From a virus, in the IMG/VR virus record IMGVR_UViG_3300044716_000122, positions 31,046 to 95,045 of that record: a stretch of 64,000 nucleotides of DNA; one strand, 5' to 3'. A program made the position numbers and the translations under genes. This document shows positions 13,810 to 60,500 of the stretch, one piece after another. Position 1 is the first letter of the stretch. Every line of letters starts with the position of its first letter. The notes under the pieces are model-generated. The model saw only the letters and a program-made list of their open reading frames with translations, was not told where the DNA came from and made no database searches.

Positions 13810-13812
13810 GGT

Positions 13813-39094: not shown

Positions 39095-41104
39095 TTAGTA
39101 TCGGAAGGGGGATGAGGTTGTACGGAACAAAGAGTTCCCTTTCTTTTCTCGGAAGTAAGCCTGGATTCTATTATCATCGTTTGAGTTAGAAATAATAACC
39201 TGAGTAGTAAGAGTCTTAGCCATAGCTAGAGTTAATCCAAATGAAATAACTCGGTCAACGTTTAACTTAGGGGTAAACTTAATTAACTCCTTAATCAAAA
39301 GAGGATCTAACATTCTGGTTACTCCTAGTCTTTCTTTTACAATAGCTCCATCTTCGTCTCTCTCTACTTCTATTACCTCGGTTATGTATTCGATAATAAG
39401 AGACATCAAATAGTTTTTAATGTCTTTAGTCATGTGAATACCATAGTCACGATTAACTGTAGAGTTAGGGTGAATGTCATTTAGGAACTTAGGCGTCTTC
39501 TCTAGAACCTTGGGAGATTCATTCTTGTCTACACAGTGCTGGATAAAACCATAGTCCATGTTTTCACAAAGAGTTTTAGCATTGTAATACTTAAGAAGCA
39601 TCTTAGTTATCTCATACCAAGTCTCAATCTTCTTAGGACGACCTGTGTAACAAGCTACAACTATATTCTGCCAACCTTCTCCGCTTAGATTGTGGACCCT
39701 CTTATAAATATAAGTAGAACCCAAAGAAGTTGAGTAGTGTGCCTGCGACTGTTTGTATGGATCCGTTCCTGCTGTATAAAGTCCATAGGGGGCTTCTGAC
39801 AGAGGATATTCCCAAATCTGAACACAACCCTCAATGGGATCTGTGGACTTAACAGGGAAGTTAATAACGGGCTTCTTGTCTGTAAACTTGTGTCTTATCT
39901 TTCCATCAGAGTTAATGTAGAGTTCTACATTGTCTGCTTGGATTTCTTGAGCACTTAATTTCTGTAGTTGTTCTTGAAGTAAGTCTACAGGAAATATGTT
40001 CTGAGATAGTTCTAAGAAACACTCTTCGTGATTCAAAGGATAGTACATTACTTCTTTTAAGTAAGCTTCTAAACCGTTTGATTTCTTAGTCTGTTCTCTA
40101 GACTTTAAGATAAGTTCTTTTCCTTTCTCTTCGTCTGCTACCCAAATCTTAATTATGTCTAACTCAGAAGGATCTTCTTTACCTAAGTAAAGTCCTAGGG
40201 GAGTTTCTTGCTTTGGAACTTTCAAAGAACGTGTACCTGGAATAAAGAGTCCATAAGACTTTCCTGTTTCATTAGACTCTACAGGAAGAAAGTTATAAGC
40301 TTCAGGATTGTTAAATAACTCTTCTAGGTCTGCTGCCTTAGTCATATCTCCAGAAGTTCCAATTACAAAAGGAGAACAACGCCAGCCATAAGGACTGTCA
40401 AAACAAGGAGTAGTTGCCGCTAAGCAAGAAAGGATCTTTCCTTTTCCTCCTTCTTCTAAAAGAAACGAAGATAGAGTAAGACCTGCCGCTGCTTCCGTAT
40501 TGTTGCCTTCATCAAAGTTTCTTACGTGGAACTTAGACCACTCATTACGAGAGTTAGTTCTCTTATCTTTAAATCCTAAAGTTACCTGTCTCTTCCAGTC
40601 ATCCTCAATACGAGGGAACCTAAAGTAGTCAGGAAGATTTCTAATACCTAAGTCTACGTAGTCTGTGATTACTTTTAAGTCAGGTTGGTTAAGCGCAGAT
40701 ATCAAGTTGTCAGAACCTTTCTGTGTAATGGCTTTGTGAGCCATATAAGAAGAAGTTAGAACTGACTTAGAGATACGTCTAGATCCTACCATCACAACTC
40801 CTTTCTTTCCGTCTATATGATTCTCTGCTTTATGGATAGTTTCATCTACTGCTAAGTAGGTATCCCAAAGCTGAGGTTTGTCTAGCTTTCTAATTTGACG
40901 CTTACCTACCATTGTATCTACATAAATAGACCAGTAGTTTAAATGCCAATAAATAAAAGGCGAGAAATAAAATCCATTAATAGTTACACCTTCTGTAATC
41001 TTTTTGTCTTCGTTCTCCCAAAATGCATCATACTCCTCTGAGCCAATCTCAGGGAAGGACTTAACATTAATAAAGAATTCTGGACTTTCTAGATTAGCGT
41101 GCAT
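39095..41104 (-). CDS. terL: Terminase large subunit
   Basis: This gene encodes 669 residues. The N-terminal ATPase has a Walker A-like loop VGSRRISKS (residues 106-114), lacking the classic GKT/S spacing but keeping K/S, and a Walker B SFLLEEGGK (213-221) with a catalytic Glu. The C-terminal nuclease (RNase H fold) has AGTDPY with Asp448 and a second acidic site near CENMDYGF (about 510-520). Two-metal cleavage of concatemeric DNA and ATP-driven packaging are known for this family. It lies between a candidate small subunit upstream and the portal downstream. Confidence 0.88.
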   Translation of the reverse strand: MHANLESPEFFINVKSFPEIGSEEYDAFWENEDKKITEGVTINGFYFSPFIYWHLNYWSIYVDTMVGKRQIRKLDKPQLWDTYLAVDETIHKAENHIDGKKGVVMVGSRRISKSVLTSSYMAHKAITQKGSDNLISALNQPDLKVITDYVDLGIRNLPDYFRFPRIEDDWKRQVTLGFKDKRTNSRNEWSKFHVRNFDEGNNTEAAAGLTLSSFLLEEGGKGKILSCLAATTPCFDSPYGWRCSPFVIGTSGDMTKAADLEELFNNPEAYNFLPVESNETGKSYGLFIPGTRSLKVPKQETPLGLYLGKEDPSELDIIKIWVADEEKGKELILKSREQTKKSNGLEAYLKEVMYYPLNHEECFLELSQNIFPVDLLQEQLQKLSAQEIQADNVELYINSDGKIRHKFTDKKPVINFPVKSTDPIEGCVQIWEYPLSEAPYGLYTAGTDPYKQSQAHYSTSLGSTYIYKRVHNLSGEGWQNIVVACYTGRPKKIETWYEITKMLLKYYNAKTLCENMDYGFIQHCVDKNESPKVLEKTPKFLNDIHPNSTVNRDYGIHMTKDIKNYLMSLIIEYITEVIEVERDEDGAIVKERLGVTRMLDPLLIKELIKFTPKLNVDRVISFGLTLAMAKTLTTQVIISNSNDDNRIQAYFREKKGNSLFRTTSSPFRY

Positions 41105-43704: not shown

Positions 43705-44151
43705 CTATTTTAAACTCTCAAACCCACTCTTAAACGACTTCTCTAAAGCTTTAGAATAAGCTTTTCTGTTATGAGGAATACCTTCTACAGAAACAAACAT
43801 AGCATTAACGTAAACTACTTTACTAGCTTCTCCTTGAAGAAGAATTCCATTTACGTTAATTTCTGTACTTACAATGTATTCTCGTTTAAGAAACTGTAAG
43901 CCTACAATATTTACAAGTTGTTCTGGCATTGCAATGGATTTGATTTTTCCTGAAATAGGACTGCCCTCATTACATAATTGGTACTTGGCTGAAGCAATCT
44001 CTTCTAGAGTAGTTTGTGCTCCAAAGATTATAGGTCTTCCTCCTATCTCTGTTACAGTAGCAATTGAGGTTACAGTGTCAATCTTATAGCATTGAGCACT
44101 CAGAGAAGTCATCATAGTGACTAAAGCGGAAAGTATAAATAGTTTTTTCAT
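43705..44151 (-). CDS. Small secreted protein
   Basis: This gene encodes 148 residues with a clear N-terminal signal peptide (MKKLFILSALVTMMTSLSAQ, cleavage after SLSA). The mature part is beta-rich with two Cys (C22 and CNEG) and ends in a basic helix (KALEKSFKSGFESLK). It is the last gene of the envelope operon and lies 10 bases after the lectin gene. No family was recognised. It would be exported to the periplasm or beyond. Confidence 0.65.
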   Translation of the reverse strand: MKKLFILSALVTMMTSLSAQCYKIDTVTSIATVTEIGGRPIIFGAQTTLEEIASAKYQLCNEGSPISGKIKSIAMPEQLVNIVGLQFLKREYIVSTEINVNGILLQGEASKVVYVNAMFVSVEGIPHNRKAYSKALEKSFKSGFESLK

Positions 44152-44161
44152 AATTTAATAG

Positions 44162-45145
44162 TTAGTAGGTTACTGCTCCAGCATAACCAGGAGCTATTAT
44201 GTAGAGATTTAAAGTTCCTCCACTAGTTAAAGTAGAAGTTGTATGAGTGGAAACTCCAGGATAAGTTGCACGTACATTTGTAGTAGCCGCTTTAATTGCA
44301 TTGTATTGAGAAGTAGTAAAGATTCTTACGTCAGGAGCTGTTCTCCACTTAGAAAACCTTCCTGCTTTTCTTGCAGCCACATAATACTTGTCTGCTACTG
44401 AAAGTAATCCATCTTCATTTACATCATACATGTGAAAAGACAAACCATTTCTTGTAGTTTTTCCTAGTATAGTATTAGATACTCCTTGGATATCTGAGGT
44501 TGCATAAGCCTGGACTCTAGTAGGGGCAGCTATCTCTATGTAGTACTCCTTAGAAGGATCATAAGTCTCAGAAATAGAATAGTAACCCGAAGAGTTAGTA
44601 TAAATAGTTTTATAAAGGGTCCAAGAAGAAGTTGTTACTATGTAATCAAATTCTATAACATAAGCCAGACTACTACTATTGTTTAAATCATTCCACTTAC
44701 CGCTACCTACAAATTGAATGTAGTCTTCATTACCTGAGTTATTGGGTTCTCCTGAGTTCCAGTTTGTGTAAGAAAAAGTTTCTCCTGTTACCCATTTCCA
44801 AGTCCCCTCTGTTACTTCATCTGTTAGTCCTATCCAACCAGAAGGCCAAAGATTAAATAAGAAACTATTTTCACCTGAACTTGTAACTGTTACTAAATAA
44901 CCACCCATAGCAACACAGTTAGCTTTAGCTGTAGTCCAGTTAGCTGTTCCTGTAGAACGATAGTAAGAGTGCCCATTATAATTACTCTGAGAAGTAAATC
45001 CTGTTATAGTAGAATTTGTCCTTCTATATAGCTTTACAGCCACGTTGTTTGCACCAGATCCATTTGCATTATACAAGTATCCAGAATAAGTGAATTGTGC
45101 ACTCAGTGCGTTCACAAAGAAGAATAGAACAATAACCCACCTCAT
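44162..45145 (-). CDS. Secreted C-type lectin with dockerin-like module
   Basis: This gene encodes 327 residues with a signal peptide (residues 1-16, ending LSAQ). A short beta region is followed by a C-type lectin domain (about 59-168) with WIGL (104-107), EPN (133-135) and WND (151-153), the calcium and mannose-type sugar-binding residues; the usual disulfide cysteines are mostly absent (C77 only). After a second beta region comes a dockerin-like calcium loop DVNEDGLLSVAD (241-252) followed by ARKAGRFSKW, shared with the T9SS protein at 50144-52045. The start overlaps the previous stop by 4 bases. Sugar binding at the cell surface is inferred. Confidence 0.75.
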   Translation of the reverse strand: MRWVIVLFFFVNALSAQFTYSGYLYNANGSGANNVAVKLYRRTNSTITGFTSQSNYNGHSYYRSTGTANWTTAKANCVAMGGYLVTVTSSGENSFLFNLWPSGWIGLTDEVTEGTWKWVTGETFSYTNWNSGEPNNSGNEDYIQFVGSGKWNDLNNSSSLAYVIEFDYIVTTSSWTLYKTIYTNSSGYYSISETYDPSKEYYIEIAAPTRVQAYATSDIQGVSNTILGKTTRNGLSFHMYDVNEDGLLSVADKYYVAARKAGRFSKWRTAPDVRIFTTSQYNAIKAATTNVRATYPGVSTHTTSTLTSGGTLNLYIIAPGYAGAVTY

Positions 45146-46605
45146 ATCAATAACTTTGCTCCCATTAAGATTTGAAAGTTGAGAATGTCCTGACCTGCTA
45201 CATAAGTTCCTCCTCCTGTAATACCTAGACCAAATGTCTTAGTCATCTTCCAGGTAAGGTTTACAAAAGGAATTACAATAGGCTTAGCTTTAAATAAAGA
45301 CTCTGTATAATACTTAGAGTAGGGAGAATAGATACCTGCCATAATAATTGTAGCATCTATATGTTTAGTAAGTTTTCCCTTATACATAAATCCCCCTATA
45401 ACAATAGTAGAGATCATTTGTTCTCCGTAGAGTTTACCATAAGTTCCAGCAGCTCCGTAGAGTGCTGTAAAGTTCTTGACTGAATTTACTCTAACAAACA
45501 GAGCTGTGTTAGAGAAGGCTTTAGGCATCAGACTCATTCCATCTGATACTACACTAATGTGTTTATGCCCTTTTTTGTTTGCTCCTATCCATGAACGGAC
45601 ACAGGAGATATTACCGATCTTAGCATTAAGCATATAATCGGCTGAAAACCCAAGAGAAGAAGTACCATCTCCTTTTACTCTTGTAAAGGAAGCAGTACCT
45701 CTTGCATCTTGTGCTCCATCAGACTTAGTCTGAATACCAACTAAATCACCCGTTACTATGATCGCAGGCTTAGCAACTTCGGCTTTAGCTTTATTGGCTG
45801 CTTTCACAGTACCACCAGACTGAGACTTTTGTTGCTCAGTCTTAGTTTCTTCTACTTTTTGTTCTGAGGGTTTCTCGGTTTGTACTTCCGTTTTTTCTTC
45901 GGTTTTACCACTGGAGGAGCCACTACTTCCTGAGCCACTTCCACTTCCACTGCTACCACTGGAGCTTCCGCTACTACTTCCACTACTTCCACTACTGGAG
46001 TTGTCACCACTGCTTCCTGCATTACCGTCTCCGCTGCTTCCACTACTGGATTGGTTACTGCCTGAGGTTTCTGAGGAGTTACCTCCACCGTTTGATTGTC
46101 CGTTTTCTCCTGACGAGCTGCCAGAATTACCAGAACCACTAGAGCTACTGCTAGTACGATTCCGAGAGTTAGTTCGATTGTCATTGCTATTGGTTTTATT
46201 GTTAGTTCCTACGTTAGTTCCTGAAGAAGTACTCCCACCTACATCTACGTTAACACTTCCTACATTTGATATGGCCCCTAGATTCATAACATTACTTACA
46301 ATGTTTAAGGTCGCATTTGTAGTCGTTGTTGTTGTAGTAGTTACTCCAACTCCTTGACAGGGTGATGTATTTTTATACTTCAAATATACACTATTTATCC
46401 AATTATCAAATGTTCCATCTGTTAATTCTGTATAAGAGAAAGTTTGTACCTGTCCATAGTAAGCAATTACTATAGGACTAGACATATTTGCGTTAATAAA
46501 TTTTAACTCTTGTGTACACGGATCTGTGTAAGAATACATAAAGCTCTGGCCTTTGAGGGACAGAGCTATCATGAATAGGATTAATATCTTAGTTTTTAAA
46601 TACAC
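45142..46605 (-). CDS. Outer-membrane-barrel-like protein with Ser/Gly linker
   Basis: This gene encodes 487 residues with a signal peptide (residues 1-19). An N-terminal domain (20-90) contains two Cys and precedes a Thr run (VTTTTTTTT). Residues about 125-235 are Ser/Gly-rich, followed by a Glu/Lys/Gln-rich stretch (EEKTEVQTEKPSEQKVEE). Residues about 290-487 have alternating hydrophobic strands typical of outer-membrane beta-barrels (LGFSADYMLNAKIG, FGLGITGGGTYVAG, QILMGAKLLI at the end). It overlaps the CsgG-like gene start region by 17 bases and probably works with that lipoprotein at the outer membrane. The barrel is inferred from strand pattern. Confidence 0.65.
   Translation of the reverse strand: MYLKTKILILFMIALSLKGQSFMYSYTDPCTQELKFINANMSSPIVIAYYGQVQTFSYTELTDGTFDNWINSVYLKYKNTSPCQGVGVTTTTTTTTNATLNIVSNVMNLGAISNVGSVNVDVGGSTSSGTNVGTNNKTNSNDNRTNSRNRTSSSSSGSGNSGSSSGENGQSNGGGNSSETSGSNQSSSGSSGDGNAGSSGDNSSSGSSGSSSGSSSGSSGSGSGSGSSGSSSGKTEEKTEVQTEKPSEQKVEETKTEQQKSQSGGTVKAANKAKAEVAKPAIIVTGDLVGIQTKSDGAQDARGTASFTRVKGDGTSSLGFSADYMLNAKIGNISCVRSWIGANKKGHKHISVVSDGMSLMPKAFSNTALFVRVNSVKNFTALYGAAGTYGKLYGEQMISTIVIGGFMYKGKLTKHIDATIIMAGIYSPYSKYYTESLFKAKPIVIPFVNLTWKMTKTFGLGITGGGTYVAGQDILNFQILMGAKLLI
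45852..46184 (-). CDS. Overlapping ORF: membrane-anchored Val/Glu/Pro-rich protein with basic tail (candidate)
   Basis: A 110-residue frame, shifted by one base, lies fully inside the Ser/Gly linker of the barrel gene. It starts MTIELTLGIVLAVALVVLVI, a single membrane segment, continues with a Val/Glu/Pro/Ala-rich arm (TPVVEVVEVVAEAPVVAVEV) and ends in a strongly basic tail (PPVVKPKKKRKYKPRNPQ). This TonB-arm-like plan looks protein-like, but frame-shifted Ser/Gly codons (AGT, GGT) automatically read as Val and Ala, so the hydrophobic and repetitive parts may be an artefact. No strong ribosome binding site is visible. Confidence 0.35.
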   Translation of the reverse strand: MTIELTLGIVLAVALVVLVILAARQEKTDNQTVEVTPQKPQAVTNPVVEAAETVMQEAVVTTPVVEVVEVVAEAPVVAVEVEVAQEVVAPPVVKPKKKRKYKPRNPQNKK

Positions 46606-47278
46606 CTGCCTTAATGAGATTTTGAATCACATTAGTACAAGCAGTTTCTAAAGACTTTCTGGTAGCTTTACCGACAGTACTTTGAGAAAACTTCATATCG
46701 TCTAGAGACTTTAAGAAAGATTCGCCTACCTTTTGTGATTCGCCTTCTCCAGATCCAATGTATATCTGACCTGTCTTTGCGTCAACAAAACGCACTTGTA
46801 AGCGAATAAAGGTAGTAACAGCAACCTTCGACTTAAGACCATCAACTTGCTCATCTTCATCAACAGCAAAATCGGCCACAGTAACATAAACAAAGTAGTG
46901 AGCAGGTTTAATCTTACCTTTTCCATCAATGGGTTCATCAAATACACCTTTCTTTGAAGCTTTAAACTGAGTTACCATCCTCTCCTTGATCTCACTCTTC
47001 TCCTCAGTAAATATAAAACGATTCGTTTCATCTAAATAATCTAATACGGATTCAGCAAAACCTAAGCCTACGTTCTTCTCCTGTAATGCAGGATACAAAC
47101 TTAAGACTTTTGTCATGTCTACACTAACTACTTGAACTGTTTTTTTAATAGAATCTGTGTAACCAGAAACACTTGAGATGTCCTTAGATACTACAGGCTC
47201 ATCATCTGTGGTTGTTTTCATACTACCACAAGCAAACAATACAACAGTCAACAATAGACTACCAAGGATCTTCTTCAT
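46589..47278 (-). CDS. CsgG-like outer-membrane lipoprotein
   Basis: The product has 229 residues from the ATG at 47278 (MKKILGSLLLTVVLFACGS); an upstream ATG at 47362 would add a Leu-run from overlapping sequence and is rejected. It has a lipobox LFAC with Cys17. The mature part has the alternating helix/strand layout of CsgG-family lipoproteins: VLDYLDETNRFIFTEE, AHYFVYVTVADFAV, VRFVDAKTGQIYIGSGEGE and a C-terminal helix (ETACTNVIQNLIKAG). CsgG forms secretion pores for curli; other members are lipoproteins of unknown role. It overlaps the previous gene by 20 bases and precedes the barrel gene. Confidence 0.65.
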   Translation of the reverse strand: MKKILGSLLLTVVLFACGSMKTTTDDEPVVSKDISSVSGYTDSIKKTVQVVSVDMTKVLSLYPALQEKNVGLGFAESVLDYLDETNRFIFTEEKSEIKERMVTQFKASKKGVFDEPIDGKGKIKPAHYFVYVTVADFAVDEDEQVDGLKSKVAVTTFIRLQVRFVDAKTGQIYIGSGEGESQKVGESFLKSLDDMKFSQSTVGKATRKSLETACTNVIQNLIKAGVFKN

Positions 47279-47576
47279 CTGGTTGAGGTTTAGTAGCAGG
47301 AGCAGGAGTAGCAGCAGGCTTTGAAACCTCTTTCTCTCTGATGATGGTAGTAGTACCTCCACCTGATTGCTTTTGCTGGTTAGTGTTGTTGTTCTCTAAG
47401 TTAACGTTAATAACAGGCTGAGCAGATTGTTCTGTCTTAGCATCTTCTTTAGGTTCTTCGCCTCCTCCTAGATGAGTAGCAAACCAAGCACCACCTGCTG
47501 TAACAGCAGTAGTAATTGCTCCAATGATAGTTTTTTTGATAGCGGACATACCGCTTTCTTCTTTTTCTTCTGACAT
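47259..47576 (-). CDS. Small membrane protein with Pro-rich tail
   Basis: This gene encodes 105 residues: a charged N-terminus (MSEEKEESGMSAIKKT), one membrane segment (IIGAITTAVTAGGAWFATHLGG), then Asn/Gln-rich and Pro/Ala-rich stretches (NLENNNTNQQKQ, AATPAPATKPQPDEED). It overlaps the CsgG-like gene and lies 4 bases from the coiled-coil membrane gene. It could be an outer spanin-like or adaptor protein, but lacks a lipobox. Confidence 0.6.
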   Translation of the reverse strand: MSEEKEESGMSAIKKTIIGAITTAVTAGGAWFATHLGGGEEPKEDAKTEQSAQPVINVNLENNNTNQQKQSGGGTTTIIREKEVSKPAATPAPATKPQPDEEDPW

Positions 47577-47580
47577 GATA

Positions 47581-47841
47581 TTAATTTTTATTTATAAGTT
47601 CTTCTACGTATTTATCTCTTTGCTCCATTAGGTACTGATTACGCTCAATCATTCTAGCTCTTTCATCATCAGTAAGTTTAAGGATTAAAGTTTCTTTATC
47701 AGTTATCATCTTTTTATACTCTTCTAACTGAATTTTAAAGTTCATGTTCTGGTAGTACAGGATACCCACTAATAATATAATAGTGAAAGATTGCTCTTTC
47801 AGCTTCTCAAAAAATGTTTTACCCATAGATCCTTCTTCCAT
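47581..47841 (-). CDS. Membrane-anchored coiled-coil protein (i-spanin-like layout)
   Basis: This gene encodes 86 residues: one N-terminal membrane segment (FTIILLVGILYYQNM) followed by a long charged coiled coil (QLEEYKKMITDKETLILKLTDDERARMIERN region). An ATG at 47826 is an alternative start with GAAGGA just before it. The layout is that of inner-membrane spanins (Rz type), but it sits next to DUF2589 and CsgG-like genes rather than the endolysin, so the function stays open. Confidence 0.55.
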   Translation of the reverse strand: MEEGSMGKTFFEKLKEQSFTIILLVGILYYQNMNFKIQLEEYKKMITDKETLILKLTDDERARMIERNQYLMEQRDKYVEELINKN

Positions 47842-47842
47842 A

Positions 47843-48313
47843 TTAGTTTGTTTGTCCTAATGCTTGTATATAAGAGTCAATGATTCTAGACACGGCTTCA
47901 GGCTTTTCATCGGCTTTAAATTTAACTTTAATCTTAGCCATCCCTGAAGAACTTGGATTGATTCCTGAGTCTACTTCAATTCCTTTTATATTGTGTTCGT
48001 ACCCCTTCTTCTTAAATAGTCCCAGTAGAGACTTCTTAAGACTGGATACTTCCTTCTCCTCATCCCCAAAAATTAATCTAGCTTCAAACTCTATATCTAA
48101 CTCATCTAGTCCAATAGAAGAGTGATCTGCTAGAATATAAAGAGGCACTAGTAACTCCTTGTCCCCAATCATAAAGTTTGTAACCTTTGGAGTACCATCC
48201 TCATTAAAGTAATTTCGTAGAGCATTAATGTGTTGTCTTTCACTAATACTCTGAGAAACCATGGCGGCCTCTAATAGACCGCCTACAAGTTCCTCAATGT
48301 TTAATCTTGCCAT
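47843..48313 (-). CDS. DUF2589-related protein, short paralogue
   Basis: This gene encodes 156 residues. The N-terminus (IEELVGGLLEAAMVSQSISERQHINAL) resembles the LPIEDLI...A....A opening of DUF2589, followed by a beta-rich part (LLVPLYILADHSSIGLDELDIEFEARL) matching the PLLAIVPIPNL...I.F..E pattern, and a C-terminal half with KIKVKFKADEKPEAVSRIIDSYIQ. It lies directly downstream of the clear DUF2589 gene, so the pair probably acts together. The function of the family is unknown. Confidence 0.65.
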   Translation of the reverse strand: MARLNIEELVGGLLEAAMVSQSISERQHINALRNYFNEDGTPKVTNFMIGDKELLVPLYILADHSSIGLDELDIEFEARLIFGDEEKEVSSLKKSLLGLFKKKGYEHNIKGIEVDSGINPSSSGMAKIKVKFKADEKPEAVSRIIDSYIQALGQTN

Positions 48314-48339
48314 ACAGCAAAGTTAGTTAAATTTTCTGA

Positions 48340-48930
48340 TTAAGATTCTTTACTCAACGGAACCAAAGAAGGCTCTAACATTGCAGTAAGGAAGTCAGAT
48401 AATTTAAGCATGCCTTCTGTTGGAGGCAACTGTTCTGCATGTACTTTTACTTCGTACTTAGCTGAGTTATCAGTCTGCCTAGTGTTCTCTTTGTGAGCAC
48501 TTACGCTACCAGATACCTTAGCATTGAAACTCATACCCCACCATTTGCCACCTGCAGTTACTTCATAAGCTGTCTCAGAATCGTTAGATTCTTTAGACAT
48601 GTCTGAAGTTTTTACTTCCATAGTGAAATTGATGTCAGCAGAAGTAATTGCCAAAGAAGGCAACGGAACCAAAGGAAGCATAGGAACTTTACTGTAAACA
48701 GTCTTAAGTTCTTGAACTCCTGTGTCTCCGTCTGTGAATACACGTTGCATCTCTACATCAAGTGAGCGTGCAACATTAGCATCACCTTTTTTCTCAAAAG
48801 CTACCTCAGAGATGTATCTCCAAGTTACTTCATTTAATTTAGCTTGTCCTTTTGCCATTCCGACAATAGGGCTTACAATAAGGTCTTCGATAGGAAGTCC
48901 TCTGAACTGATCTGCAATTGAATCTGCCAT
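48340..48930 (-). CDS. DUF2589 family protein
   Basis: This gene encodes 196 residues. It follows the DUF2589 pattern closely: LPIEDLIVSPIVGMAKGQAKL (residues 11-31), VPMLPLVPLPSLAITSADINFTMEVK (given as key strands, about 83-108), and a C-terminal AHKENTRQTDNSAKYEV segment (about 152-168). It begins after a short gap from the zinc-ribbon gene and is followed by a shorter paralogue. The biochemical role of DUF2589 is not known to me. It has no signal peptide or membrane span. Confidence 0.82.
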   Translation of the reverse strand: MADSIADQFRGLPIEDLIVSPIVGMAKGQAKLNEVTWRYISEVAFEKKGDANVARSLDVEMQRVFTDGDTGVQELKTVYSKVPMLPLVPLPSLAITSADINFTMEVKTSDMSKESNDSETAYEVTAGGKWWGMSFNAKVSGSVSAHKENTRQTDNSAKYEVKVHAEQLPPTEGMLKLSDFLTAMLEPSLVPLSKES

Positions 48931-48957
48931 AATTTATATATTAGTTTGTGTTGTTTT

Positions 48958-49161
48958 TTATTTAAATTTAACTGTACCCTGGTACGATTTCTTGACACTT
49001 TCTATTTCCTTAATTGCAGAGTAGAAGGATGTTTTTATTTCTTCATTTATTGTGAAGTTAAAGATAGTACTGCAGTGTGGACACCCAGACTTAGGATTCT
49101 TTAAGATAAACTTTAAGTCTAAGCCTAGGGGTTCTTTACACATCGGACAGGGTATAGCCAT
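48958..49161 (-). CDS. Small zinc-ribbon protein
   Basis: This gene encodes 67 residues. CPMC (5-8) and CPHC (32-35) form a two-knuckle zinc ribbon, followed by a short strand and a charged helix (EEIKTSFYSAIKEIESVKKSY). It lies 2 bases after the homing endonuclease and 27 bases before the DUF2589 gene, so it is probably a partner of the DUF2589 pair. Confidence 0.65.
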   Translation of the reverse strand: MAIPCPMCKEPLGLDLKFILKNPKSGCPHCSTIFNFTINEEIKTSFYSAIKEIESVKKSYQGTVKFK

Positions 49162-49163
49162 GA

Positions 49164-49766
49164 TTAAGGATTACTTGTATTAGATAAAGACTTTTTACAA
49201 TTTGTATTATGCCATCTTGAGATTGCAGCAGGTTGTGCCATAAAGCCACAAACCTCACATGATACTTTTGATTTTGGGTATTTATAATTTGCAGTATTTT
49301 CTCTAGGCTTACGCATCTTCTCTATAGCTTCAGGAGTATGTTTAATTCCTCGTATTGTATTTGCAAGTTTATCTTTTGATTCTTGCGTCCATACTCTACC
49401 TGGTTTTCCTTTTTTATCTAAACTGATTTGGAATTGTCTTATCTTCTCTCGTGTTTCTTGTTTTACAATTACACCAGTACCACCATCACCTCCATCTGTT
49501 TGATTTGCTAGAAAACCTTCAGACTTATCTTTTCTCCCGTATAATTTAATGAGTTCCTTTTCCTTTTCACAAGCCTCTTCCCAACTTAAGTCATTCATAA
49601 TAATATCTACTCTATAGTTTGTTTTGGCTATAATATTATGCCAATACTCATTACGATGCTCTTTTGCTTTAGACCTCTTAAATTTTCCTTCATTATCATC
49701 TACGCCTACTCCAATATAAAATGGAATATTCGTATCTAATCTAATATGTCTATACACGTAAGCCAT
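49164..49766 (-). CDS. GIY-YIG homing endonuclease with NUMOD3-like and zinc motifs
   Basis: This gene encodes 200 residues. The nuclease domain starts with YVYRHI (3-8) and FYIGVG (16-21), the GIY-YIG pair, with catalytic-type Arg/Glu in the following helices (KAKEHRNEYW, WEEACEKEKELIKLYGR). Residues about 140-155 hold a NUMOD3-like SxKHTPEAIEKM element (IKHTPEAIEKMRKPR). The C-terminus has a CxxC...HxxxC zinc-type motif (CEVCGF, RWHNTNC). It is a free-standing mobile gene inserted in the operon between the holin-like and zinc-ribbon genes; no intron is visible. Confidence 0.85.
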   Translation of the reverse strand: MAYVYRHIRLDTNIPFYIGVGVDDNEGKFKRSKAKEHRNEYWHNIIAKTNYRVDIIMNDLSWEEACEKEKELIKLYGRKDKSEGFLANQTDGGDGGTGVIVKQETREKIRQFQISLDKKGKPGRVWTQESKDKLANTIRGIKHTPEAIEKMRKPRENTANYKYPKSKVSCEVCGFMAQPAAISRWHNTNCKKSLSNTSNP

Positions 49767-49778
49767 AAGTAAATATAC

Positions 49779-50147
49779 TTAATTTTCTTCTCTTTTACTA
49801 TATTTAGCAGCTATGATTTCTGGGGTATCGTCTTCCTCATCTACTTTAGAGATTAACATTTTATCTCTATCTTCAGAATTGAACCAGTAGTCAACTACTT
49901 TGTTTAAGTTACCTACAAAGGCACCCAACAAAATAAGTAACATTTCTTTCCAATCTTCTCCAATAGATGCTCCTAAAAATACTGCTGCATTAATACCAAC
50001 AATAATTAAAGTAAACAAACCTAATACAATTGCTGTAATTCTCCAACGATTAGCTTGCATTTGTTGTAGCATATAGTAGAACCTGTTCTTAGGATCTACT
50101 GCTACTGGCTCTGCTTGGGTAAAACCAAGTGTTTTTTTAATGTTCAT
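49779..50147 (-). CDS. Holin-like membrane protein
   Basis: This gene encodes 122 residues with a soluble N-terminus and two membrane segments (ITAIVLGLFTLIIVGINAAVFLG and LLILLGAFVGNLNKVVDYWF), then a charged cytoplasmic tail (DRDKMLISKVDEEDDTPE). The second segment ending in VVDYWFNS is typical of holins I know from Bacteroidota phages. It overlaps the T9SS-protein gene by 4 bases, and a second holin-like gene lies 3 kb upstream. Confidence 0.6.
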   Translation of the reverse strand: MNIKKTLGFTQAEPVAVDPKNRFYYMLQQMQANRWRITAIVLGLFTLIIVGINAAVFLGASIGEDWKEMLLILLGAFVGNLNKVVDYWFNSEDRDKMLISKVDEEDDTPEIIAAKYSKREEN

Positions 50148-52045
50148 TTTTGTACAATTATTTTTGAATGTAATACTTCTGTCTCAGTTGTTACAGAAAG
50201 GATATAGAGGCCATTAGAAAGACGATCTAGGTTTGCACTATACTTGTACTTACCTGCGGGCATACGTTGTTTTAAAATAGTCTGTATGCGTCTTCCTACC
50301 TCATCAGAGATAGCCATGTCTACGTTAGAGTCTTCTTTAATCTTGAATTGAATCTGAATATCTCCTTCTGTAGGATTAGGAAATACTATAATAGAGTTTA
50401 AATCATTAAGCGAAACAGTTCCTTTGTTAACTCTACGTACTTCAATAATACCCATAGCAGGAGTGATGTTCATATCCTTAGAGTTTTTGTCTCCTACGTA
50501 TTTAGCACCTGTCCATAAAGCTGCACTTGCCCAACTATCTTGAGGCTTCTTAGCAATGAACTGAACATTGAAAGCCTGTTCTCCGTCATTAAGCATGTTC
50601 TCGTTAGTTAAGTCAGCACCTCCCCAAGATACTATACCATTAGAAGGGTTCATATAAGTAGTCCACTTCATCATCTTCTCAGAGTTCTCAATACCTTTAA
50701 ACTCTAAGTAAGCTGTGTCGTACTTAAGATCTAACTGTAATGCACCTAAGTTCTTTCCGTTAGTTAAAACTTTAACAGGAATGTTAACTAGGTTTCCTTC
50801 TTCTACACTTACTTTGGGCATGTTTACCTCAATAGTTTCTGCAGGGAAATCATAACTTACAGTTTCGTCAATAATGTAACGCTTTGCATTAGCAGAGTTA
50901 ACAATCTTAATAGGAGTTAAACGAGCCATCTTAAATCCTGTAGAGTTTGCATCTCCTTTAACAGCTACATAGTAAGTAATAGAATCTCTTCCATCTACAG
51001 AGTAAGTAAAGTTATTTACAGTAGAGTAAGTAGCAGTTAAGTTAGAAGCAGATCCGTTGATTGAATTATATTCAGCAACTGTGAAGAACATTACATCTTT
51101 CTTTGAGTTAGGCCAAGCAGAGAATCTACCTGCCAAACGTCCGTATACAGAGTATACATCAGCAATAGAAATATCACCAGTAGTACCGTTTACATCCATT
51201 GTGTAGTAATCAAATCCTGCGGGAGTGTATTGACCTAAGATAGCTTGGTTAACCTTCTGTGCATCTGCAGTAGAGAATACGTTACCTGGAGTCATTGTAT
51301 CACCTTTAACTGCAATACGTACATCCCAATAAGTAGTATCTAAGAACTTACGGAATACAGTAACCCCGTTAGAGTTAGTTTTCTGTGCAGCAACTTCAGT
51401 CCAGGTAGAAGAACCTTTAGCTCTTTTCTCTAAGCTAACTGTTAAGTTCTTAGCATCTGTACCTGTAACGTTCTTAAACTTAGTAGCAAATCTTAATACC
51501 TTTTGGTTGAAACGTCCACCATAAGAGTAAACTACCAAAGTAGTGTCGTTACCCCAGTTAGTAGCAGCTCTATTAGAGAATGACTTAACACCTGCAACTT
51601 TTAAAGTCTTGATAGAATCTAAACTGTTCCATACAGACTCAGCAGCGTGAGTGAAAGTCAAATCAAATGTAGCTCCGTTAGAATAGTTGTAAGTAGAACT
51701 AGTACCTGTGTAAGCCAAGGTAACTGTTAAGAATCCTTGTGTGTTACTATCTACGTACTGAAGATATTGATCTGTAGTAGAAATCTTAAGAGAAGGAACG
51801 ACTGCAGTAAAAGCTGTTTTGTCGTAGAACACACGGAATTGCATACCTGTGATCTTCTCTGAAGTAGAAGTGTTATAGAAATGTAGAGGAGCAACTGTCT
51901 GACCTACAGTGTTAGTAGCTACTTGATAGCCTGAGTCAATGACTACCCAGTGACCTGTACCTGGAGAGGTAGCAGAACTTTGTGCTGATACATTGCCAAC
52001 CAACAATGTAAGCACCCCGATGAAGACTTTAATTAATTTGTTCAT
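50144..52045 (-). CDS. Exported cohesin/dockerin-like protein with T9SS C-terminal sorting domain
   Basis: This gene encodes 633 residues with a signal peptide (residues 1-21). The order is a cohesin-like beta domain (about 35-172), a beta domain (175-250), a dockerin-like calcium loop region (DVNGTTGDISIAD, 284-296) followed by YGRLAGRFSAW, a second cohesin-like domain (about 405-535), and a C-terminal domain (551-633) with VFPNPTEGDIQIQF, DEVGRRIQ and DRLSNGLYILSVTT...KIIVQK, the signature of type A T9SS sorting domains. The protein would pass the inner membrane by Sec and be displayed or released by the host T9SS. The start overlaps the upstream stop as ATGA. Such a domain is very unusual on a phage. 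Confidence 0.78.
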   Translation of the reverse strand: MNKLIKVFIGVLTLLVGNVSAQSSATSPGTGHWVVIDSGYQVATNTVGQTVAPLHFYNTSTSEKITGMQFRVFYDKTAFTAVVPSLKISTTDQYLQYVDSNTQGFLTVTLAYTGTSSTYNYSNGATFDLTFTHAAESVWNSLDSIKTLKVAGVKSFSNRAATNWGNDTTLVVYSYGGRFNQKVLRFATKFKNVTGTDAKNLTVSLEKRAKGSSTWTEVAAQKTNSNGVTVFRKFLDTTYWDVRIAVKGDTMTPGNVFSTADAQKVNQAILGQYTPAGFDYYTMDVNGTTGDISIADVYSVYGRLAGRFSAWPNSKKDVMFFTVAEYNSINGSASNLTATYSTVNNFTYSVDGRDSITYYVAVKGDANSTGFKMARLTPIKIVNSANAKRYIIDETVSYDFPAETIEVNMPKVSVEEGNLVNIPVKVLTNGKNLGALQLDLKYDTAYLEFKGIENSEKMMKWTTYMNPSNGIVSWGGADLTNENMLNDGEQAFNVQFIAKKPQDSWASAALWTGAKYVGDKNSKDMNITPAMGIIEVRRVNKGTVSLNDLNSIIVFPNPTEGDIQIQFKIKEDSNVDMAISDEVGRRIQTILKQRMPAGKYKYSANLDRLSNGLYILSVTTETEVLHSKIIVQK

Positions 52046-52512
52046 TTTGTTTTTATTTTACTTAGTTTGTGTATTTGTTCTACAGCGTTTGCCTGTAACC
52101 AAGGCTCTGGGGTTGGTAGTTTATTTATAAAACTTAGTTCGTATATGTAACACTTAAGTTCTTCTTCATCTAGACTCTGTACTACTGGATGTAGCAAGTA
52201 GCTTAGGTGAAGACTTTCATGTACAAGAACGCAAGCTAAGTTAGCAATTGAGTTCATCTTTGCATCTCCTACGGCTATGTAAATAGTGTTTCCGTCTTGA
52301 GATATGTTGTTAGAAGAATAGGGACTAATCCAAAAGTCTACTATGTCGCAGACATCTATCAATCTAGTGTATATGTTGACATCTGTTTGAGCAATTAATG
52401 CTAAGGCTGAGTCTACCTTTAAATCCCAACCATCCCCTGCCTTCATCACTTTAATCTGAGAAGAACAGGGGATAGAGAGAATCAGAAAAAGACTTACTAG
52501 AAGTCCTTTCAT
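52042..52512 (-). CDS. Exported HExxH metalloprotease-like protein
   Basis: This gene encodes 156 residues. A signal peptide (MKGLLVSLFLILSIPCSS) is present; the Cys16 context (LSIPC) is an imperfect lipobox. HESLH (98-102) is a zincin motif within an LVHESLHLSYLLHP helix, preceded by IYIAVGDAKMNSIANL. It lies between the endolysin candidate and the T9SS protein with tight overlaps. It may cut envelope proteins during lysis or process the secreted proteins; neither is shown. Confidence 0.65.
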   Translation of the reverse strand: MKGLLVSLFLILSIPCSSQIKVMKAGDGWDLKVDSALALIAQTDVNIYTRLIDVCDIVDFWISPYSSNNISQDGNTIYIAVGDAKMNSIANLACVLVHESLHLSYLLHPVVQSLDEEELKCYIYELSFINKLPTPEPWLQANAVEQIHKLSKIKTK

Positions 52513-54592: not shown

Positions 54593-57500
54593 TTACTTGT
54601 TTTTTAATAGTTCTATCTCAGCCCTTAAAGCCTCGATCATTGTTTGTTGTTCTTTCATTGCTTCTACCAATAGAGGGATAACTTTAGTGTAAGCCAAGTT
54701 CTTGTATCCATCTTCTTGAGTAGTAACCGCTTCTGGAAGTACTGCCTCAACATCTTGAGCAATAAGACCTACATCATGTGTGCCTACGTGCTCACCTGAG
54801 TTCCAATCAAACTCTACACCACGTAGAGATTTAATCTTTTCTACAGGAGTAGTAATAGGAGTGAGGTTATCCTTAAGTCTAGAATCTGAAGGCTGAACAA
54901 CTGTGTAGTCAAAAATTACTTGGTTTAAGCCTCTTGGAACGTAGAACATTCTTGAGTCTGTACTGTTCTCTGCAATACGTCTGAATTCAATGTCTTGACC
55001 TCCTGCATCTCCAGTAAGAAGTATCTTAAATGTTTTCCAACTAGAATCTGCTTGACCTCTCAATAAGAAGTAAGTCAAAGGATCTTGGTTATACCCTACG
55101 TTAGAGTGAACTTGTAAACCTGTTCCATTACTTCCAGCAACAGTACAAGTATTACCTACTTGGTTTACTACAGTTTTCCAAGCACTCCAGCTACCATTAT
55201 ATCCAGATCTATAAGCCAAAGCTCTGTATGCACCTCCAGTATTAGCAACATCTTCAGGGAAGTACATTTGCATCAAAGGACCTCCAGTTTCACCATAAGA
55301 TAAAACAGTACCATAACCATAAGAATCACTAGGTCTATTAGCTCCAGTGTGACCTAATGCATTAGATACAATTAACTTAGCAGTAATAAAATAGCTATTC
55401 CAATCTTGACCATAGATATCTCCAAACTTAGTAAGCTGTTGTGATATTGTAGCGTAACTTACAGATTGGCTAGCGATGTTTCCTGTATTAATTGCTCCAG
55501 ATACAGTTTGATAAGTACCACTAGATTCATAGGCCATAGACCCTAATCCTAATTGAGACTTAACGTGAGCAACACTAGACTTCCTTAACCATCCATCTCC
55601 ATTACTTGTATAGAATGAGTTGATAGTTGGGTTCTCTGTTTCAGATACGTTTGAGTTAATGTAATGAGCATAGATGTAGTTGTTAGCATCTCTAATAACC
55701 ACTGTGTTTGCACCTACACTACCAGAAGGAGCATATCCACCTACAGTGGCAGCGCTACCCGTAGTATTCTGATTCCAAGTAGGAACTGTTCCAGTTAATC
55801 CTGAATAAGCCACGTTGGTGGCTGTTGCTGCATTACCTGATACCGAAATACTCCATGTACCACTTGCCCCAGTACCCGTTAGTGTAGGAGAATAACTTGT
55901 GTAATTAACTGAAGTTAAAATATCACAAAAAGCTCCCCAAGTACTATCAATACCTTTTCTTAATCTTAAGCCAGGATTTCCAGAACCATTAACACCTGTT
56001 TGATTAACAAATGCTAACTGATAAGAAGAATCTCCTGTAGAGGAAGTTGTGCCATCCCAAGGATTAAATTGTAATAAACCTGCATAGTTACCTACAGCAC
56101 CTACACTTCCTGCTCCTACAAATGAAAATCTAAATGATCTAGCTGATGTTGTAGGATAGTGATTTGCACTACCTGGATTTCTGTCGTCATCATTATAAGA
56201 GTACCAACCTCCTGTATTAGCTAAGCCAGCAAAAGTAGGAGAGTTACCTGTACCTACACTCTGGTTAATGGTGTATGCTGTAATGTTACTAGCTGTTCCT
56301 GAGATACTAGCACTTGATGTAATATAACCACTTGGGTTTGTAGCATTGTACGGAGTAAAGCCTAATGCTGTGGTTACGTTACCTGAGTTAATTCCTGTAA
56401 TATAACCAGAGTTATTCGTAAACTGAGAAATGTTCATGCTAGTTAAAACACCTGCTTCATCAGCATATCCAGCAGCTGCTTTTGTCCAACTTCCCCAACT
56501 ACCACCTTCTTGTGTTCTATAATAAGTATACTTACGAGCATGATCTCTTGCTACAGCAGTCATTAATCCATAAGTACCATATGCATAATCATTGCCTAGA
56601 CCTTGTGTCTGTACATAGTATTGAGAACCTGATTGTGGAGTATCGTTAGCAGTAGAGCCTTGCATAAACCAAACACCAAAGTTTGGAATTGCTCCAAATG
56701 TTTGATACGTGCTATGTCCTTGTCCACTGTTATTCCAAAGTTGTATTTTGCTCAAGCCATTAAGCTGAGCTGAATTAGTTACTGATTGGCTTCCAATGTT
56801 AGCAGTTGTAATTGCATCTGTAATTCCATAACCACTAATTGTAGTTGGCTTAGATGAAACGTTTGCAAATGAAATACCTGTAATATACCCACTAGGATTT
56901 GTACTATTGTATGGGGTAAATCCAAGAGAAGCCTGCTTACTATCAAGAGCTGTTTGTAATCCTGTTACATCTGATATAGCGTGAGTATGTGCAGTAATAG
57001 AAGTTAAAAATCCTCCATAGTTACCTAGATCGTTTGTAAATTGAGACAAGGCAGTAGGACGAGAACTTACGTTAGTCCATGCTACTGATCCAGCAGATCC
57101 AGTAACACTAATGCTCCAAGTTCCTGAAGCACCTGTTCCTGCAAGAGACGGAGAGTAAGCTGTATAGTTTGCATCGTTAAGTAGTACTCTCCAAGGGTTA
57201 AATGAACCAGCATCGCCATTTCTTGTTCTAAAGGCAATACCTGTTCCACTACCACTATAGGCAGCGTTAAGTTGTAATGAGTATCCTGGTTCACTAAATC
57301 TAGCAATAGGTCCTGTATATGGAGCATTTACTGAATATGTAAATCCTGTAGAGTTAGCGTCCATTGTATTAGCATCAAGAGTAAATCCTTGATAATACAT
57401 TACATAAGACGGTTTACTTGATACATTACCCCATGCTACTGCATTTGCTGTACCTGCTGTTGTTGCGTAAGACACGGATTGACTTCCAATATTAGAAGTA

Positions 57501-60500
57501 GTAATTAATCCTAAATTAGAAATAAAAGTAGCAGGTGTTTGAAATCTTACATAGTCATCATCCGAACAATATATCTTGGTTATAGCAGAAGAGAATACTC
57601 CAGAAGGAGTATTAATCCATCCTGCTTGAATATATCCATTTGCATCAGTTCTAACAATTTTATTTGCTTCGTTATTTCTACTACTATGAACAGCTAATCC
57701 TCCTGCTGTGGATGCATTACTTACTGACTGAGACCCAATGTTACCTGTATTAATTGCAGATGCAATTGGTTGAGCCCAAGAAGAATAGTTAGATGAGTCT
57801 AGTACAGTTGCTTGAGCTCCAGCGCCATATGCATTTTTGTGACAATATAATGTACCACTTTCCCAATAGAACTGCCATCCATAGGCGTTGTTGTGAAATC
57901 CAGTTGTGTTAGAGGTTGGATTTACCATCAATGATACGTTTCCATTTGATGCATTAAACTCAATTCCGTTCCATCCATTTCTAGTGCCAGTAACTAGCCA
58001 GGGACCATAACTTCCATCATTAGGTCTTAAATGAGCACCATTTGTTGGAGAGTATAATCCATAAATACCATTAAGTTGAATCCAACTTTCAGGAATTAAA
58101 TAACCACTTCCATTTCTAGTAGGAATAGTATTAGCACTAGCTCCTACAGATACACTATATCCTCCTACAGTAGAGGAGTTACCTCCATTAGCTGGAGCAG
58201 AACCTGCTGTAGTGGCATAAGTAGCAGTAGCAGCATTACCGCTAATATTTGTCTGGTCACCTGTATTTGTACCACTTAAATTTGATGCAGACAATGTTCC
58301 TGCAAAATATCCATTACCTGTGCTAAGACCAATATATGCTCGTAATCCATTTGCTCCACCTCCAATAAAACCAATTGAATTACCTTCCATACCACCAACA
58401 GCAGAATCAATTTGCCTATGGTAAATACCCCAGTTTGAACCAGTGTCTGCACTATCTAGATAAATCCAAGAGTCTCTATCGTTTGGTTGACTGTATAAAA
58501 ATACGTTTGAAGAAGGGTTAACTGTTGTAAAACTATTAAGAATTAAACTGTTATTACCTCTATATCTTTCTGCAGTAATAGAAGAACTTGTAGTAGATCC
58601 TCTTCCAGTAACAGTAGCCAATGTATCTGTTTCTGTATATCCTGTAATATAACCAGAGTTATTTGTGAATTGAGAGATGTTCATTGAAGTTAACGCACCC
58701 GATGTAGTAGCATAACTTACAGATTGTGAACCTATATTACTTGTAGTAATTGCAGTTGAAGCAGCTTGATAGCCAGCACTTGCATGATTTCCCCACCCAT
58801 AAGCTGTATTCCATTGTGTGGAATCTCCATAACCAGAAGAGTAAATTACAGCTGCTATAAAGTTTTCATACGATCCCCCTGGGTTATTTCTAATAGCCAT
58901 TCTACCACTAGATTCCATCATGATACTAGAAGCAACAACACCCCCCCAATGGAATGCTAACTGAGGTGCATATATTTCGTTTGTATTTCCACTTCCTCCA
59001 CTATTCTCTCTTACTTGATAATTCGTTGTATAAGATGTTCCTGTTGAAGTACTTTGGATAGTACCAAGCCCAGAAAGATTTGTAGCATTACCAGCACTTC
59101 CTGAACTGCCAGTTACATTAATACTCCAAGTACCACTGTTATAAACATAATCGGTATTATTTGAGTGTTTTAATCTTCCACCATATATGTAAACAGTTCC
59201 ACCACCATTGCCAAAGTACATATCCCCACTTGAGTAATGATTAAAATACATTTGATAAACATTACCTGCTCCACCTCTAGTGTCTATATGTAGATTACCG
59301 TTAGAAGTTCTTATACGAGCATATGTTGTATCTGTTGACCAACCACCAAGATGTAAAGCCGCAGCAGCATTATATGAGCTAGCTCCATAAACTATTAATG
59401 CAGCAGCATCCCCATTTACAATTGTATTTGTAACATTTGTATAAACTCCATTAGTCACACTACCCGCACTACCACTAATACTTCCTGATGATGTAATATA
59501 TCCACTAGGATTACTAGAGTTATAAGGAGTATATCCTAAAGCACCTGTTACTTGTCCTGATGTTATTCCTGTTAAGTATCCTGCACTAGCGTGGTTACCC
59601 CAACCAAATGCGGTATTCCAGTTAGAGGATGTTCCATAAGAAGTTGTAGTAATAAGTCCTGAAGTCCAGATACCTGAACCAATAGCTGTTTGGGTAACAC
59701 CATTATCCATGAATAAAGCCTGATGCCCTAAGCCAGATTTAGATTGTCCTCCTACATTTGTATGTGTCCATGCAATACCATAAAGATTTCCAGTAGTTGT
59801 ACCATTAGCAGCCAACTTATAAGAGTCCCCCATTGCAAATACACCTTGGTATCTCTCAGCAGAATAAAGACCTACAAGACCATTACCATAGTTTCCATCT
59901 GTGTAAACATTACTATAAGAACGTAGTGTGTCAGCATTAACAGTAACTAATCTAGAAGTACTATTAGGATCTAAATAATAATTTGTATCCTGTGAATCAT
60001 AAAAAATTGGCGCTCTCATTTGAGAGGCTGCATCTACACGATATAAATTACTAGTACTATTAGGATCTAAATAGTAACTAGTATTATTTGAATCATAAAA
60101 AATAGTACCATAAAAAGCACCACTCTTTTCTATTTTAGTATTTCCAATTGTTTTGTCATAAATAGGATAATCAGTATCTACTCCAACAAATAAATTTGCA
60201 AGAAAAATTGTATCACCACTAGCATTGTAATCGGTTAAGAATCCTAATTTAGCAGAAGCTGTACCTGGAGGAAACTTACCTCCAGCATTTGTACCACTAT
60301 AATCTACACCGTCCATTATACCTACATAGTTTGTCCATGTAGTTGGTACAATAGTGTATCCCAAAGCAATGTACTTATATGTACCACCTGCACTACCATT
60401 ACTTAACTTAGTACCAGAAGCAATAGAAGGACCATTCCAAGGACTAATCAGAGTAATAGTATTAGTGGCGTAGTTAACAGCTCCAGGATCCCATCTTCCT

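Follow-up and report, generated by a model that had tools for sequence, protein, structure and literature searches.

A phage gene cassette pairing a cohesin-bearing type IX secretion scaffold with a lectin-bearing, dockerin-like partner, and its possible role in display on the surface of Bacteroidota hosts

Phages are usually thought to alter host surfaces by means of single membrane proteins or sugar-modifying enzymes. A locus at which two phage proteins with signal peptides carry the same domain raises the question of whether the two are parts of one structure and, if so, what such a structure might do for the virus. We considered this question for a 64,000-nucleotide stretch, referred to here as the window, which is part of the 95,045-base virus record IMGVR_UViG_3300044716_000122. 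A first-pass annotation had noticed a dockerin-like module in a type IX secretion system (T9SS) protein, which we call A, and in a C-type lectin, which we call B, and had suggested that they might form a surface complex.

The shared module and its two carriers

Both genes lie on the minus strand, separated by 4,998 bases and nine or so open reading frames, in line with the 5 kb and many genes given by the first-pass annotation (Table 1). The claim that they share a module was put to the pairwise alignment proposed at the time and is borne out: residues 212-343 of A and 172-298 of B, about 130 residues in common, are 36% identical (BLASTP, E=5e-16), and the alignment scores 193 where 1,000 shuffles give a mean of 37.6 and a maximum of 72 (Z 23). 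The 60-residue segment originally named stands at Z 22 against shuffles and is thus part of the module, although it was drawn too short, since the second half of the upstream Ig/transthyretin-like domain (the X domain) belongs to it as well. The module common to A and B therefore comprises half of an Ig/transthyretin-like domain, a dockerin-like F-hand pair and a conserved tail. A search of the 95-kb record found no third copy beyond these two.

Table 1. Positions in the window of the genes and protein domains discussed in the text.
Feature	Position	Strand	Evidence and remarks
Gene A (P0001, 633 aa)	50144..52045	-	signal peptide, cohesin 1, X domain, dockerin-like, tail, cohesin 2, T9SS sorting domain
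A cohesin 1, residues 28-181	51503..51964	-	AlphaFold model; VIA Z 13.2 with cohesin 6kgd_A, rmsd 2.8, 137 aligned
A X (CnaB/transthyretin-like) domain, residues 183-247	51305..51499	-	AlphaFold strands 183-247; weak transthyretin-like matches
A dockerin-like F-hand pair, residues 248-307	51125..51304	-	hhalign 96%, E=3.5e-9; PDB dockerin 4uyp_B E=0.011
A conserved tail, V.FFT..EYN.I ... GDANSTG, residues 308-372	50930..51124	-	
A cohesin 2, residues 400-531	50453..50848	-	Pfam PF00963 best stretch 405-528; VIA Z about 12
A T9SS type A sorting domain, residues 554-631	50153..50386	-	Pfam PF18962 4e-11; TIGR04183
Gene B (P0002, 327 aa)	44162..45145	-	signal peptide, X domain with inserted C-type lectin, dockerin-like, tail
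B X domain, first half, residues 18-43	45017..45094	-	AlphaFold strands 17-26, 36-43, pLDDT about 95
B inserted C-type lectin head, residues 50-168	44642..44998	-	Pfam 2.7e-16; DC-SIGNR Z 13.6
B X domain, second half, residues 172-207	44525..44632	-	AlphaFold strands 176-206; BLASTP against A
B dockerin-like pair, residues 208-263	44357..44524	-	second loop D-x-N-x-D-G-x5-D; hhalign 94%, E=1.9e-7
B conserved C-terminal tail, residues 264-327	44165..44356	-	
CsgG-like exported protein	46589..47362	-	62/62; likely true start near 47278; lipobox
487-aa exported protein	45142..46605	-	N-terminal Cys-Cys domain, long Ser/Gly-rich linker; 62/62
148-aa exported protein, last cassette gene	43705..44151	-	62/62
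105-aa protein	47259..47576	-	one membrane segment, then Ala/Pro/Gln-rich stretch ending in W; 62/62
122-aa two-span membrane protein, frequent neighbour	49779..50147	-	
156-aa exported protein, HExxH-like HESLH, frequent neighbour	52042..52512	-	

The reading of A as a T9SS protein stands. It has the signal peptide and C-terminal sorting domain of type A cargo, for which export itself is predicted, and the sorting domain matches the structures of PorU (VIA Z 10.2) and of the NucA substrate 8glk (Z 9.8). Its cohesin-like domains can be called cohesins by both fold and family score, as they form jelly rolls and the whole protein reaches 55 bits against a Pfam PF00963 cut-off of 24.1 (E=1.2e-14, in two stretches). 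Residues 28-306 align in one piece with chain 4fl4_I (flexible VIA alignment, Z 13.2, 230 aligned), which we take to be the cohesin-X-dockerin fragment of CipA; the rmsd of 11 indicates that the order of the domains agrees and their angles do not. The series cohesin, Ig-like X domain, dockerin-like module thus recalls the C-terminus of this cellulosome scaffoldin.

Protein B lacks a T9SS sorting domain, and its X domain is interrupted by the lectin. With the lectin removed, this domain aligns without gaps to that of A (Z 10.7), and the AlphaFold strands that flank the insert have pLDDT values of about 84-96. The lectin itself is poorly modelled (pLDDT about 40-66) and still matches DC-SIGN-type lectins (VIA, Table 1), which together with the Pfam match upholds its first identification. 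It has the C-type lectin fold and the calcium/sugar site that define a sugar-binding member of the class, with EPN 133-135 and WND 151-153 invariant in 47 relatives; there is a single cysteine (C77), so that the usual disulphides are missing. Because the VIA lists for B are full of lectins, we relied on secondary structure and profile comparison for the fold of its base.

The name dockerin-like also holds in profile-profile comparison with an alignment of dockerins found in Bacteroidota genomes, in which both repeats are matched at 96% for A and 94% for B; control regions of A stay below 1%, and column shuffles reach at most 1.4% and 7.6%. Two tandem loop-helix (F-hand) repeats are present, with helices at residues 259-269 and 294-304 of A and 216-226 and 250-260 of B. 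Neither protein has the calcium ligands D1, N3, D5 and D12 in both loops. In B they are complete in loop 2 only, loop 1 being wholly degenerate, and in A loop 2 is nearly complete while loop 1 keeps only the first and last Asp. What is left is invariant: D249, D261, D284, N286 and D296 in 50 sequences of A, and D241, N243, D245 and D252 in 47 of B. No protein reaches the Pfam PF00404 dockerin cut-off (best 15.6 against 22.9 bits), and we therefore keep to the term dockerin-like.

The loss of the first calcium loop of B bears on whether the two proteins bind one another at all. The module might be a shared handling or folding unit that was copied from A to B, each protein then working alone, B for instance as a soluble lectin. 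Such a reading would account for the presence of the module in both proteins, A having its own, and dockerins are common in Bacteroidota (over the cut-off in 67 of 198 genomes). We nevertheless consider it rather unlikely, given that A possesses cohesins, that it occurs elsewhere in a two-gene form, and that A and B co-occur strictly, in 62 of 62 relatives.

A conserved cassette in different phage lineages

The first-pass annotation missed a larger conserved cassette, the nature of the lectin as a swappable insert and the division of A in other phages. Downstream of A, on the same strand, come the 105-aa membrane protein, the CsgG-like protein, the 487-aa exported protein, B and the 148-aa exported protein, and all five genes, along with both modules, are retained in each of the 62 distinct relatives that have 8 kb or more downstream of A. 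This comparison with related phages had likewise been proposed as a check, and its outcome does not refute the shared module. Since A, B or the module served to find these relatives, the figure supports the cassette and does not give its frequency among phages. Across them the distance from A to B ranges from 2.25 to 5.0 kb. In the window A is separated from the other cassette genes by a homing endonuclease, a 67-aa gene with paired Cys residues and two DUF2589 genes (47843-49766); these are absent from most relatives and so account for the 5-kb gap seen here. On a 254-kb contig (L162) an extra 273-aa exported barrel-like protein is encoded between B and the 148-aa gene (13631-14449 of that contig).

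The CsgG-like protein is a lipoprotein in most relatives. Profile comparison with bacterial CsgG gives 51% (hhalign, E=1.5e-4, 150 columns in order; controls below 2%, shuffles below 1%; one comparison), the protein falls below the Pfam PF03783 cut-off and a PDB sequence search gave nothing; with the cut-off unreached and the relation moderate, we use the term CsgG-like. The C-terminal region of the 487-aa protein reads by eye like a putative outer-membrane barrel. No family was matched by the 105-aa or the 148-aa protein, and a candidate identification of the latter as CsgE was rejected, being unsupported by searches and profile comparison. General Pfam scans of the cassette proteins gave no match to CsgF or to the curli-repeat proteins CsgA/B.

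Bacteroidota signal peptides with Gln at +1, the Q rule, have been described (PMC10653852). A simple version of this rule picks out signal peptides in 94 of 102 A proteins, 107 of 109 B proteins and 107 of 108 of the 487-aa putative barrel proteins, and in none of the terminase, endolysin, holin and tail fibre sequences; it also flagged the six DUF2589 sequences and so gives some false positives.

The phages that carry the cassette are of different kinds. The source phage is crAss-like by its terminase and capsid protein, and the cultured Flavobacterium phage immuto, in which the cassette spans 10.5-16.4 kb, is T4-like (gp20, gp23, tail sheath). There A is divided over two genes, gp014 (cohesin1-X-dockerin) and gp015 (cohesin2-T9SS), each with a signal peptide, and A is likewise divided in a second relative (L163); the immuto record labels gp013 as a lectin domain protein and gp015 as a cohesin domain protein, with no comment. 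Among isolated phages, A, B or the CsgG-like gene were found in the immuto group only. The cassette is also present in other large phages, and on the 254-kb contig, filed under a Bacteroidetes MAG, it sits among phage-type genes. A terminase related to that of the source phage was found in 6 of 22 records tested, and in one relative (L022) A is 84% identical while the terminase is just 29% identical.

Several features of the source phage outside the cassette may be recorded here. The cassette indicates a host among the Bacteroidota, yet the terminase (window 39095-41104) is nearest to that of Leptolyngbya phage Lbo-JY46 (40%), a cyanobacterial phage as reported, and the capsid protein agrees with this affinity (26%). 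The first 12 kb were considered for a recoded genetic code, an idea that was dropped on finding one giant open frame on the minus strand (1-12165), of at least 4,055 codons and running off the left end, with otherwise only chance ORFs. Giant virion proteins are usual in crAss-like phages. At the other end of the window a tail fibre of 2,436 aa (54593-61903) contains many internal repeats and ends in an S74 chaperone; a second S74 protein occupies 61896-63974.

Bacteroidota typically encode T9SS proteins that contain cohesin, PA14 and GEVED domains, and the locus might accordingly be read as ordinary host surface genes, recently acquired and without a special phage role. We regard this as very improbable. 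Among 395 Bacteroidota genomes the module hardly occurs: a phage-like contig in a MAG gives the single strong match, beside three weak ones in frames of 1,551-2,711 aa, and the idea of a common host domain was rejected. In 84,980 genomes, 128 pattern matches yielded 3 confirmed relatives, whose contigs also bear phage-type genes, whereas viral contigs contained 353 relatives. Purifying selection on the cassette (see below) also speaks against such an origin. A contig under a Sphingomonadaceae MAG (L161) has the phage cassette with 92% module identity and is probably a mis-binned phage contig.

The position of the cassette suggests another explanation, in which the CsgG-like pore, the barrel and the small membrane proteins would permeabilise the outer membrane late in infection, with A and B as passengers or release helpers. 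In the source phage it adjoins an endolysin-like gene and a small membrane protein, and a role in lysis was proposed for phage CsgGF by the authors of the Melnitz study (PMC9004378). In immuto, however, the cassette lies beside nucleotide metabolism genes, about 6 kb from an endolysin and far from a lysozyme at 146 kb, and a function in lysis leaves the T9SS anchor, the cohesins, the dockerin and the exchangeable heads unexplained. We consequently judge it quite unlikely.

Exchange of the heads of protein B

The head of B is a C-type lectin in 43 of 75 distinct A/B pairs, an unnamed 200-aa domain (U200) in 19, PA14 in 8, GEVED in 4 and another type in 1; the GEVED heads are N-terminal rather than inserted. 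The U200 head and that of L162 matched no Pfam family, and U200 has no match in isolated phages. On the tree of A the head type changes at least 18 times, compared with a mean of 29 when labels are shuffled. Individual pairs of relatives show what such changes look like. L003 and L005 differ in having a lectin and U200, respectively, with A 96%, the CsgG-like protein 93% and the 148-aa protein 97% identical, the 105-aa protein at 73%, the 122-aa protein at 89% and the remaining neighbours at 91-100%. The reverse pairing, U200 in L054 and a lectin in L082, is accompanied by identities of 98% for A, 99% for the 148-aa protein, 79% for the barrel gene and 91-100% for the remaining neighbours. Between L046 and L048 the entire B gene has been replaced among neighbours that are 94-96% identical. 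Conversely, heads of the same type can be 75-82% alike on bases that are just 32-37% alike, and mean identity is 80% for lectin heads and 58% for the base. The dN/dS ratio of about 0.12-0.13 indicates purifying selection. Taken together, the swaps and the selection indicate that the head is a cassette within the cassette, exchanged whole and not diversified by mutation.

C-type lectins of the same fold class occur on phage receptor-binding proteins and as targets of diversity-generating retroelements (DGRs). The head described here differs from these in being of the EPN/WND type, exported, and conserved instead of hypermutated. A diversity-generating retroelement was considered and rejected: the 95-kb record, possibly incomplete, has no RVT_1 match and thus no reverse transcriptase. 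The exchange of heads resembles that of tail-fibre tips, and B could attach to particles by cohesin-dockerin contacts. Progeny outside the cell might then pick up exported A and B as extra host-binding fibres, with head exchange serving to switch host range. We give this reading little credence: virion proteins rarely carry signal peptides, the T9SS domain indicates the cell surface, the heads are conserved relative to their base, unlike fast-evolving receptor-binding tips, and the phage has large tail-fibre genes of its own.

A proposed model for display on the infected cell

We lean towards the view that the cassette is a phage-encoded surface-display system for Bacteroidota hosts, and infer the surface location, A-B binding, export route and purpose from the nature of the parts. 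A more specific version, which we put forward tentatively and with rather less confidence, is that a T9SS-anchored cohesin-dockerin scaffold shows interchangeable glycan-binding heads on infected cells, in a cassette passed between unrelated phages, and thereby holds these cells near new hosts or excludes rivals. The infected host would export A via Sec and then its own T9SS, and the sorting domain would fix A on the outer face of the outer membrane. There A could act as a miniature scaffoldin, with cohesin 2 adjoining the anchor and the series from cohesin 1 through X to the dockerin-like module arranged as in the C-terminus of CipA. B would be an adhesin, in which the base of X and dockerin-like domains bears, on a loop of the X domain, a ligand-binding head that can be exchanged; in the source phage this would be a C-type lectin of mannose type, expected to bind glycans. 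A cohesin-dockerin contact would hold B on A, and copies of A may chain by the same contact. Since B and gp014 have no T9SS domain, they need another exit, a task that could fall to the CsgG-like protein; this protein and its partner probably carry B across the outer membrane. The two-gene A of immuto, in which each part has its own signal peptide (as also in L163), is as expected of an adaptor and an anchor, and would fit a chain of anchor, adaptor and tip. Display of this kind would let the infected cell adhere to glycans of other hosts, particles or matrix; alternatively, it might cover receptors against rival phages.

The proposed arrangement shares with cellulosomes not only the scaffoldin-like order of A but also the separate cohesin-bearing anchor of immuto, similar to adaptor and anchoring scaffoldins, and a partner that joins a dockerin to a carbohydrate-binding module. 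It differs from them in being phage-borne, in its T9SS anchor where cellulosomes have SLH or sortase, in the absence of enzymes, in its half-degenerate dockerin, and in that binding is predicted. Phage T9SS cargo and phage curli cassettes are already known. The latter (type VIII secretion) likewise place a CsgG-type protein in a conserved cassette of surface genes that moves between phage families; the host lacks these cassettes, and adhesion ('sibling capture'), superinfection or lysis has been proposed as their role (PMC7029224, PMC9599517, PMC9004378). For pelagiphage curli (PMC7029224, PMC9599517), as for the T9SS cargo of Cryophage (PMC7468147), the same options as here, host clumping, particle attachment and exclusion of rivals, were proposed. 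The curli cassettes belong to phages of SAR11 and OM43 and comprise CsgF and CsgG, together with curli-repeat fibres in the pelagiphages, whereas the cassette here has a T9SS scaffold and a lectin, with no curli repeats seen. Cryophage encodes T9SS-sorted proteins, including a PA14 protein, that vary between variants, for which superinfection exclusion or strain competition was suggested; in the parts of that report consulted we found no cohesin-dockerin pair, CsgG-like gene or lectin, and the T9SS proteins are what varies there, whereas here it is the partner without a sorting domain (PMC7468147). In the full-text literature searched, which included few subscription papers and no preprints, we found neither this cassette nor any cohesin-dockerin pair from a phage described.

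A cassette common to crAss-like and T4-like phages of Bacteroidota thus appears to build a multi-part adhesive structure outside the infected cell, which would use the type IX secretion of the host and be joined by the cohesin-dockerin contact familiar from cellulosomes. Seen alongside the curli of pelagiphages, it suggests that phages resort more generally to display on the surface of infected cells. With immuto in culture and an environmental Flavobacterium as its host, the reading can already be tested; should the display function as its parts suggest, the virus would be giving its host cell a new surface.
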